A stretch of 23,694 nucleotides of DNA, from the IMG/VR virus record IMGVR_UViG_3300033985_000055, positions 1-23,694 of that record; one strand, written 5' to 3'. Numbering within the stretch: the first letter of the stretch is position 1; each line of letters begins with the position of its first letter. This document shows positions 3,581 to 5,914 of this stretch, piece after piece. This DNA is from a virus. The position numbers were made by a program, and so were the translations under genes. Under the pieces are notes generated by a model. The model had not been told where the DNA came from, ran no database searches, and was given only the letters and a program-made list of their open reading frames with translations.

Positions 3581-3976
3581 CTACCACTCTATTTCATTCA
3601 GTTCATCTATTGTTGTTGCTGCTTCGACTAGCGCTTGGAGGTTTTTCTCTTTCTGGTATAAGCCCTGCAGAAATGTTTGGAATTCATTATACAATGCTAT
3701 GAAGTCTGAAGCTGTCATCTCAAGCCATCCTGTTTTTGTTTTCCACGTTACGGTAAAATTAGGATCGCTTAAACTTGCCATGTATGCTTGGAATACCCTG
3801 TCTTGAGACTCACGGTCACTGTGAAATTCATGACCTTTATAGATATATCCTCCTGTTTCCTCTTGCCAACGAACATTGGCTAATTCTGCTATTTTCTCAG
3901 CCTTAAATTGTTCAAGATTTAGAACCCACTTCTTACCGTCCCATACATGGTTCGGGCTAGGCTGTCTCGGTATCAT
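3581..3976 (-). CDS. DUF4376-like tail-fibre-associated protein
   Basis: A 131-residue protein beginning PRQPSPNHVWDGKKWVL and ending in a helical region (ALVEAATTIDELNEIEW). The middle part has the pattern ETGGYIYKGHEFHSDRESQD (about residues 41-60) and TGWLEMTASDFIALYNEF. This is the arrangement of the DUF4376 domain often found at the end of phage tail-fibre loci, sometimes fused to fibres and sometimes separate as here; it is thought to be a virion or fibre-assembly component. The ATG has GGAGGCGA upstream and lies 20 bases inside the preceding gene. The domain match is fairly strong; its function is not established. Confidence 0.7.
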   Translation of the reverse strand: MIPRQPSPNHVWDGKKWVLNLEQFKAEKIAELANVRWQEETGGYIYKGHEFHSDRESQDRVFQAYMASLSDPNFTVTWKTKTGWLEMTASDFIALYNEFQTFLQGLYQKEKNLQALVEAATTIDELNEIEW

Positions 3977-4259
3977 TTATCATCGCCTCCGCTTCTTCTG
4001 TGGTAATACCAAGTCTTGCGAGCTTACAGCCAGGGTCGAATCCCCATGTAAGATGGTAACGATCGCCATTCTCGTCAACTCTGACACAGTGGGTAGTGTC
4101 TTCCACCCCAATATCACCATCATTAAGCCTTACAGGGTTGATCCAGTTCTCACTCTCCTCGATACACTTTTGTAAGAATGCTTTTGTTTCTTCTGGATAC
4201 ATGTTTAGTAAAACTTCAACATCTTGTTTTGTGTTAATATGTTTGGGGAATCCCCTCAA
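3957..4259 (-). CDS. Hypothetical protein in tail-fibre locus
   Basis: About 100 residues, acidic. The first part looks helical (INTKQDVEVLLNMYPEETKA, then FLQKCIEESENW), the middle strand-rich (CVRVDENGDRYHLTWGFDPG) and the end helical (TTEEAEAMI). I do not recognise the family. The TTG at 4259 is preceded by GGGGGTG at good spacing; an in-frame GTG at 4268 has no ribosome binding site. It lies between the candidate DGR accessory gene and the DUF4376-like gene and overlaps the latter by 20 bases, so it belongs to the same operon. A fibre chaperone or minor virion role is possible from position only. Confidence 0.55.
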   Translation of the reverse strand: MRGFPKHINTKQDVEVLLNMYPEETKAFLQKCIEESENWINPVRLNDGDIGVEDTTHCVRVDENGDRYHLTWGFDPGCKLARLGITTEEAEAMINDTETA

Positions 4260-4271
4260 AATAAACACCCC

Positions 4272-4562
4272 CTAGGTTAATGTATAATATCTATCAATCT
4301 TTTGTATTGTAGCAATAAATGGTAAATGATCCTGATATTTCTCCATCTGTTCCAACAATACAACAGATCCAGTAAAAAGTACATACTTCTTGTCATCAAG
4401 AACAACTTGTAATGTTAAACATTTCGGCCCACTTTTAGGGTATTTACTTTCTTTGATTTTGTACCCAGTTATAATCAATTCTTTGTTAAGTATATCGTCA
4501 ATACGAATTTTGTTCCCATCCAAGGGGCCAGATTCCTCAGCAAATTCACTAAATCGTTTCAT
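4272..4562 (-). CDS. Small OB-fold-like protein, possible DGR accessory
   Basis: A 96-residue protein (MKRFSEFAEESGPLDGNKIR at the start, IQKIDRYYTLT at the end). Alternating strand-like segments (ELIITGYKIKES, CLTLQVVLDDKKYVLFTGSV) and a helix (VLLEQMEKY) suggest a small beta-barrel of the OB-fold, nucleic-acid-binding type. From memory, proteins of this kind occur in phages next to genes for DGR variable proteins, but I cannot confirm this here. It begins 26 bases after the stop of the variable fibre protein, in the place where an accessory gene is often found in DGR cassettes. No clear ribosome binding site precedes the ATG; the frame is open further upstream through the end of the fibre gene, but that part has no homology-like character. 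Function is inferred from context. Confidence 0.65.
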   Translation of the reverse strand: MKRFSEFAEESGPLDGNKIRIDDILNKELIITGYKIKESKYPKSGPKCLTLQVVLDDKKYVLFTGSVVLLEQMEKYQDHLPFIATIQKIDRYYTLT

Positions 4563-4588
4563 TAAAACCAAAACATTAAATTTAAATA

Positions 4589-5902
4589 TTACGCGGGCTC
4601 CGCCGCCCCCCGAGCCCCGTAATACGCACTCGCAACCCAGCGATAGGAATCCGCAGCCCGACAACGCGAGCCGCAATACGCGCCGTTAGTCCAATCACCG
4701 CCCGCGCGAAGCTTTATATCCGCTGAGCCACCGGCTCCATCGGCGTTATAAAGCGACCCCTTGTTTCCGGGTAGGTTGTACCAACCCCAATTAACTGTAA
4801 TTCCCGGTTGGTACGATTGGTCGCTAAGCCACTGATACATGACTCCTGCGCAATCCTCGCAACCTATATACGATATCATCCGCCTGCCATTAGTATCGAT
4901 ATGCCCTCCGGTCGTGCCGGGGTCTGCTGAACCAGAGATGTTCGTCTCCTCGTTTCCTCCCGCGGCTATTTTCTGAAATTCGCCATCGTCAAGCAGACGT
5001 TTTCCGACAGCACCCAAATCGTCTACGTGGTCCATCCATGTTCTCGTATCCGTGATGGTAGCACCGTAAGCCGATGCAGTGGTTGCGCCTGTGCCTGATT
5101 GTAAATAAATGTCAACCCATATGTTTGCCGATGGGCACCAAACCATACCCTCAGGTGAAGCGGATTTCGGGCGGTGGAGTAAATCCCACACGGAAAGAGG
5201 CAGAATGTCACCAGCAACGAAACCAGACAAAGGATGCCCCGTAATCGTCCCGACATCCGCGCACAAACAATGGAACCCGCCTATCTTGCGGCTTGTGTTG
5301 GGTGCATATCCTGCGGGATACGTTGAATTGGCTGAAAGGATGAGGATAGGTACATTCCCGCTCGATGGCTTGCAAACATAGATGTAAAAATCTTTCCCAG
5401 CCCTAGCCCCAGCTACAGTATAATTTGGTGTTATAGTATCCCAACATACTGCGTTGTTCAAATCTAATTCTATTTCAGTTGGTAGCTTATAAACCATATC
5501 ATCTATGCCAACAATAAGCCCTCCACCAGGGCTAACTATTGTATGTCTGTCGACTTCAGCTAATGTTCCTTTTATTGATGGTGCTGTGCCACGTTCATAT
5601 ACACTTGTAATTGTTACTGTAGTATCACCAGGTTTCCATTCTAGCCCTTCTGGTTTAGAGGAATTAACTGTAAGAAAAAAACCATCTGCTCCTCTGGGGA
5701 GCCTGACGACTTCACCTGGTGCAGTAGCTGTATATAAATCCCCCTTATCTTGTAATATAGCTTTATTTACCTTACCATCTACAATAGGTTTAAGTTCTTC
5801 GCCTTGTAAGGCAATAGCATCTACATATAATTTATTCCAATTCTTGGATTGTGTCCCTAAATCAGCATCTTTATTTACCCTTGGCACTATGTTTCTACTC
5901 AT
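4589..5902 (-). CDS. Receptor-binding tail protein with C-type-lectin-like variable C-terminus (DGR target candidate)
   Basis: A 437-residue tail protein. The N-terminus (SRNIVPRVNKDADLGTQSKN) is a fibre attachment-like segment followed by strand-rich regions. From about residue 200 the protein has the form of the Mtd-like C-type lectin fold: GGFHCLC, SVWDLLHRPK, GMVWCPS, DTRTWMDHVDDLGAVGKRLL, RRMISYIGCEDCAG, and finally AGGDWTNGAYCGSR...GARGAAEPA. The last ~40 residues match the consensus of DGR variable proteins, with most Asn positions replaced. It should bind the host receptor at the tail tip. ATG 5902 has AAGGAG eight bases upstream; a GTG at 5911 is less likely. It follows a second fibre gene by a dozen bases. 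The main alternative is a non-mutating lectin-fold fibre. Confidence 0.85.
   Translation of the reverse strand: MSRNIVPRVNKDADLGTQSKNWNKLYVDAIALQGEELKPIVDGKVNKAILQDKGDLYTATAPGEVVRLPRGADGFFLTVNSSKPEGLEWKPGDTTVTITSVYERGTAPSIKGTLAEVDRHTIVSPGGGLIVGIDDMVYKLPTEIELDLNNAVCWDTITPNYTVAGARAGKDFYIYVCKPSSGNVPILILSANSTYPAGYAPNTSRKIGGFHCLCADVGTITGHPLSGFVAGDILPLSVWDLLHRPKSASPEGMVWCPSANIWVDIYLQSGTGATTASAYGATITDTRTWMDHVDDLGAVGKRLLDDGEFQKIAAGGNEETNISGSADPGTTGGHIDTNGRRMISYIGCEDCAGVMYQWLSDQSYQPGITVNWGWYNLPGNKGSLYNADGAGGSADIKLRAGGDWTNGAYCGSRCRAADSYRWVASAYYGARGAAEPA
4592..4705 (-). other. Putative DGR variable region (VR)
   Basis: This is the 3' end of the lectin-fold fibre gene, residues about 400-437. The stretch is much richer in G and C than its neighbours and poor in A on the coding strand. 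Against the consensus I recall for such proteins (AGGNWNNGANCGSR, then N-rich, then GARGA), the differing residues D403, T405, Y409, A416, D418, S419, V423, S425 and Y427 are all written with codons ending in T or C (GAT, ACT, TAT, GCT, GAT, TCC, GTT, AGT, TAT). A416 uses GCT where most nearby Ala codons are GCG. This is what adenine mutagenesis of AAY codons would leave. No template copy was found in the window. Confidence 0.65.
4595..4617 (-). promoter_or_regulatory. GC-rich tract and hairpin at the 3' end of the variable region (possible IMH)
   Basis: On the coding strand GGGCTC pairs with GAGCCC across an 11-base G/C-only loop, inside a run that is nearly all G and C and ends at the stop codon. 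DGR targets end in a G/C-rich initiation-of-mutagenic-homology (IMH) element, and several have an adjacent hairpin or cruciform. The stem here lies inside the reading frame rather than after it. Only the position and composition support the reading; the hairpin is short. Confidence 0.45.
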
Positions 5903-5914
5903 ATTTATCACTCC

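Follow-up and report, generated by a model that had tools for sequence, protein, structure and literature searches.

The stretch analysed, hereafter the window (23,694 nt, positions 14001-37694 of the 39,953-bp parent record G001), carries on one strand the gene of an Mtd-type tail protein that ends in a variable region (VR), followed downstream by two small ORFs. The features are as follows.

4589-5911, minus strand: gene of an Mtd-type protein of 440 aa, predicted to bind receptors and very probably a former DGR target (Pfam, PHROG, phmmer, Foldseek, tblastn)
4599-4713, minus strand: VR of 115 nt, very probably frozen (mismatches at adenines of the L003 template, TR; hypervariable columns where the TR encodes Asn)
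4596-4618, minus strand: GC-rich, IMH-like 3' end of the VR, GGGGCTCGGGGGGCGGCGGAGCC (exact 23-mer and alignment to L003)
4563-4564, no strand: deletion scar between the 3' UTR of the VR and the next ORF, with TR and reverse transcriptase (RT), about 1.28 kb, gone (alignment to L003)
4272-4562, minus strand: small96, an intact 96-aa ORF of an unnamed, RT-adjacent family with a predicted OB-like fold (neighbourhood, AF2, dN/dS)
3957-4268, minus strand: 103-aa gene located after small96 in intact cassettes, no assigned function (L003, L002)

The tail protein and its variable region

The product of ORF 4589-5911, whose C-terminus reads AGGDWTNGAYCGSRCRAADSYRWVASAYYGARGAAEPA, is matched by the Pfam domain mtd_2nd (PF21916, 4e-18) and by the tail protein family phrog_11262 (3e-60), and its residues 151-437 match the Mtd-P1 structure 1yu0 in phmmer (7e-13). 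The same structure is the Foldseek fold match (2.5e-14) of the AF2 model, which is moderately confident (mean pLDDT 63.5), and a tblastn match covers BPP-1 mtd including VR1. An Mtd domain sequence and a C-type-lectin-like C-terminal fold are thus both present in the protein, which by its sequence is an Mtd homologue with a predicted role in receptor binding, and which would have bound a host receptor in the past. The BPP-1 DGR (mtd, avd, TR, brt) resembles the window in its Mtd-type target with a VR at the 3' end, in sequence as well as in fold. In two sisters that share the window's backbone, the Mtd N-terminus is followed by unrelated, tail-spike-like C-terminal parts (L033:13032-14969 and L035:12643-15920). 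Judged from these sequences, the receptor-binding tip of the window phage appears to be exchanged by module swapping as well as mutated.

The initial annotation had placed a DGR VR at the C-terminus of this lectin-fold receptor-binding protein, and the Mtd matches bear it out together with the comparison with L003, a 4-kb contig found with the Mtd protein in IMG/VR. L003 holds a complete cassette in the order VR (1427-1541), TR (1589-1703) and RT (1791-2870), followed by a 96-aa ORF and other genes, and its RT contains IGNYTSQ, recognized by eye as the DGR-type GxxxSQ motif. Over 115 nt the window VR departs from the L003 TR at 27 positions, and 22 of these are among the 32 adenines of the TR (hypergeometric p = 1.3e-11 with this TR as reference). 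The extent first proposed, 4592-4705, lies within 8 nt of the aligned repeat at each end. The annotated depletion of A and richness in GC on the coding strand also hold: the VR has 10% A and 67% GC, compared with 29% and 46% in the remaining mtd gene, and its A count stands at the 0.07th percentile among 115-nt windows of the coding strand.

At the codon level, the TR has AAT or AAC opposite D406, Y412, A419, D421, S422, V426, S428, Y430 and Y431. Opposite T408 the L003 TR has GAT. The GCT-encoded alanine singled out as A416, counted from a later start codon, is A419 in the present numbering, and its TR counterpart is an Asn codon. Stable conservation of the named residues in homologues would have spoken against a VR. 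The opposite was found, with 8 to 13 different residues in each of the nine TR-Asn columns among 28 homologues, while W407, G414, S415, R416, R418, R424 and R434 are invariant in the same set. A C-type lectin tail protein that was never a DGR target could be supposed, given that the fold alone is widespread, but this is refuted by homology to the TR at the DNA level with an excess of changes at adenines only. The retention of small96, a gene otherwise partnered with RT, and the deletion relative to L003 also argue against mere resemblance, to which we give next to no credence.

The same signature is seen in the relatives. All 23 differences between the L003 VR and its own TR are at TR adenines, as are 15 of the 18 between the L002 VR and the L003 TR, and over 46 distinct VR/TR pairs of this family 772 of 1229 TR-A sites are changed (63%) compared with 43 of 3934 other sites (1%). 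The intact, 99.8%-identical loci L012 and L013 have VRs that differ at 17 of 26 TR-A sites and at 1 of 88 others; because the difference is almost confined to TR adenines, DGRs of the window's kind are active in relatives. About three quarters of the changed isolated TR adenines have become G in the VR/TR pairs (e.g. L003:1427-1541 and 1589-1703), and G stands in place of several synonymous isolated TR adenines in each of the three VRs of the clade formed by the window, L002 and L003, whereas AA pairs in the TR are randomized more evenly. The preference for G at isolated adenines is consistent with the bias towards dC misincorporation that has been reported for bRT (PMC12875486).

The GC-rich 3' end of the VR, at 4596-4618, is a putative IMH, a role suggested by its position as in BPP-1. 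Within the viral contig collection, the exact 23-mer occurs only in the window record, L002 and L003, and in its counterpart in the L003 TR (IMH*) two of the G residues are A. A shared stem-loop 3' of the VR was considered and rejected, the stem being broken, by eye, in L104.

The deletion and the missing machinery

The window aligns to L003 in two blocks, 4564-5599 to L003 1574-550 and 3582-4563 to L003 3834-2853, which adjoin at 4563|4564. The L003 TR and RT sit between these blocks, and the Shine-Dalgarno sequence GGGAGG that precedes the ATG of the 96-aa ORF in L003 is also gone in the window. This comparison is made with a contig that is itself a 4-kb fragment and a mosaic, the direct ancestor of the window not being among the sequences compared.

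No TR or RT was found elsewhere in the phage. The parent record G001 and a sister that is about 85-92% identical to it, G002 (IMGVR_UViG_3300034520_000142, 41,297 bp), are close to complete, as their terminal repeats suggest: an exact 127-bp repeat in G002 (1-127 and 41171-41297) and 158 bp of 95% identity at the termini of G001. G002, though listed as linear, looks like a closed genome. No RVT_1 match was obtained in the window, G001 or G002, and the A-specific near-copy of the VR that the initial annotation expected in the complete genome was found in none of the three, there being one VR-like copy per genome. Continued alteration of host range by mutagenic retrohoming, as first proposed, is accordingly not upheld for a phage with neither TR nor RT. 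The apparent 100% match L001 was rejected as independent evidence, being the window's own parent record, which is the only record near-identical to the window.

The clear VR signature, and the remote VRs known in cyanobacteria (PMC7517822), would be compatible with a DGR that is still active in cis, with its TR and RT in a part of the phage genome that the window does not cover. The 39.95-kb parent and the complete 41.3-kb sister, both devoid of RVT_1 and of a second repeat copy, make this very improbable. The window combines a VR signature, the absence of RT and TR, and a scar and remnant of the cassette, which together define a relic DGR target.

A small gene next to the reverse transcriptase

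The deletion ends just before small96, a gene whose neighbourhood ties it to DGRs. Members of its family include L003:2854-3144, L042:7043-7348 and L100:3483-3779. Among the best 80 of 445 relatives in the Mtd scan, 36 of 38 intact loci have a relative of small96 adjoining the RT. Most loci retrieved in the RT scan have one too, as a rule directly after the RT but between target and TR in L072, L077-L079 and L085. A scan with the single small96 sequence retrieved five loci on bacterial MAG contigs, 5/5 beside a DGR RT, and relatives adjoin the RT in vir525 and in the archaeal virus ANMV-1 (adtA; PMC4372165). ANMV-1 is like the window's family in its Mtd-like target, its repeats of about 114 bp and its RT, directly after which stands the small96 homologue AJP62065.1, annotated as hypothetical; unlike the window, its cassette is intact.

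No Pfam or NCBIfam model matches small96, for which only a weak match to phrog_19665 was obtained, and it has no sequence relative in the PDB. The AF2 model (pLDDT 91) comprises five strands and one main helix in the order beta-beta-beta-alpha-beta-beta, by which the predicted fold is OB-like. Foldseek matches in the PDB are weak (best E 0.08), with OB and ssDNA-binding folds recurring, and those in BFVD are headed by two RT-annotated phage proteins, A0A8S5RXI3 and A0A8S5MQF5, possibly fusions, with ssDNA-binding proteins among the rest. The Avd model NF033474, which matched the positive control YPCBV-1, has no match in G001 or G002, nor in 12 of 13 RT-bearing records of the small96 type, the thirteenth giving one weak sub-cut-off match outside the cassette. 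Intact relatives of the window share the order VR-TR-RT with BPP-1, but the family has small96 and no recognisable Avd, and the window itself, unlike BPP-1, lacks TR, RT and Avd. It is probable that small96 is a DGR accessory protein that the deletion left behind in the window. As an RT partner it would replace Avd, perhaps binding cDNA or TR RNA, and its family is a concrete candidate for a new accessory factor in Avd-less DGRs.

Between the window and L003, small96 has a dN/dS of 0.065 and a dS of 1.2, and the intact ORF in the window fits either recent loss of the RT or residual function. The product of the next gene, 3957-4268, shares 98% identity with its counterparts in L003 and L002, with a dS of only 0.14 relative to L003, so that a recombination boundary probably lies between the two genes.

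Loss of the cassette in related phages

The cassette is also missing in the window's sisters L002 and L104, each time with other endpoints. L002 retains the TR leader GCGGTCTCC, which is gone in the window, but lacks small96, which the window retains, and L104 retains the TR leader and 52 nt of the TR (half a TR) followed by the downstream gene. Because none of the three states derives simply from another, separate losses in the window, L002 and L104 are most likely. In a survey of the best 80 of 445 relatives in the Mtd alignment scan, the loci that extended far enough downstream fell into 33 clusters whose RT is intact, 14 that have none and 3 whose RT is truncated or interrupted; a further 24 loci were uninformative. 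The RT is therefore absent or broken in 17 of 50 clusters (about a third), about ten of them with distinct scars. Both assembly and the restriction to the 80 best matches bias this frequency; because active DGR loci assemble less easily, the share of RT-less contigs may be inflated.

The scars take several forms. A clean 1,451-bp gap with 90% identity on either side separates the RT-less L108 from its intact sister L109, RT codons 1-39/41 (about 1-40) are joined to the tail of small96 in L115 and L130, the full TR is retained after loss of the RT in L117 and L119, and only the small96 tail is left in L128. No cassette remnant is seen in the RT-less loci L118, L125, L132, L138 and L172, which may never have had a cassette. 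No RVT_1 match was obtained in any of the RT-less relatives whose full records were searched, and no near-identical pairs of RT-less loci were found.

VR/TR near-repeats and hypervariation perturb assembly, and it could be argued that TR and RT were skipped by the assembler, or lost in a mixture of sequences, and are present in the real phage. None of the breakpoints, however, falls within the VR/TR repeat, and each relative has its own; the junctions of the partial RT and small96 remnants are at non-repeat sites; and the 127-bp terminal repeats of G002 and of the record of L173 are typical of closed assemblies, so an artefact of this sort is hardly credible.

In the RT-less loci with a surviving TR, the differences between VR and TR fall at adenines in 7/7, 18/19, 17/17, 16/17 and 17/18 cases. 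Such near-exclusive adenine changes imply either that the losses are recent or that the VR continues to be renewed from another source. The latter would require another element, either a prophage or a co-infecting phage whose TR/IMH matches, to diversify the VR in trans with its RT and TR. In favour of this, the IMH-like 23-mer identical to that of the RT-bearing L003, the near absence of ordinary drift in these VR/TR pairs and the remote DGR targets described by others (PMC7517822) can be adduced. RT-less Mtd phages would then not be dead ends but would rely on RT and TR-cDNA borrowed from DGR phages or prophages co-resident with them, the hypermutator being a shared public good, and the low VR/TR drift would be explained. 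But no helper RT/TR element was seen, TR and small96 are also lost or truncated in many RT-less loci, and simple recent loss accounts for the absent drift. Service in trans is thus unlikely, and we infer that no RT acts in this way on the window VR.

The VR is very probably the frozen target of a DGR in a phage disarmed by deletion of TR and RT. On this reading, an ancestor would have carried the cassette mtd(VR)-TR-RT-small96, in which the TR was copied into the VR via an error-prone, adenine-mutating cDNA, so that around a dozen residues at the C-type-lectin tip were randomized. In the window lineage, about 1.28 kb comprising TR and RT would then have been deleted, fixing the last VR variant while leaving the mtd ORF intact and small96 in place, and separate disarming would likewise have occurred among Mtd phages, both in the window's sisters and in many others. 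To diversify, find a receptor that works and then lose the mutator may thus be a recurrent evolutionary outcome, and the loss of the RT may have been favoured by selection.

Descriptions of DGRs usually concern intact systems. RT-less 'fossil' VRs have been reported in Nanoarchaeota (PMC4372165), and remnant TR-VR homology with no RT nearby is known for cyanobacterial all3226 (PMC7517822), where the possible removal of diversifiers once selection has acted was also suggested. Both are like the window in having an adenine-mutated VR without RT, but they belong to cellular genomes, whereas the present cases are phages, with scars read against intact sisters and a frequency from a survey. Among cultured phages, Synechococcus phage S-CBS1 has an annotated mtd and no RVT_1 match in its complete 30.3-kb record, although it is distant from the window (28% identity). 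Neither repeated RT loss in Mtd phages nor the small96 family was found described in the open-access journal literature searched; the repeated loss with scars against intact sisters, its rough 17/50 frequency and the small96 family are what the present analysis adds. This phage family represents the cycle's other half, in which the mutator is repeatedly lost through different deletions and the diversified receptor-binding gene stays intact, and when targeted hypermutation pays compared with fixed specificity can be tested in sister phages with and without RT. In one locus, L151:1219-2094, the cassette is otherwise complete but its RT is split between two frames, with a gap, and looks as if caught in decay.
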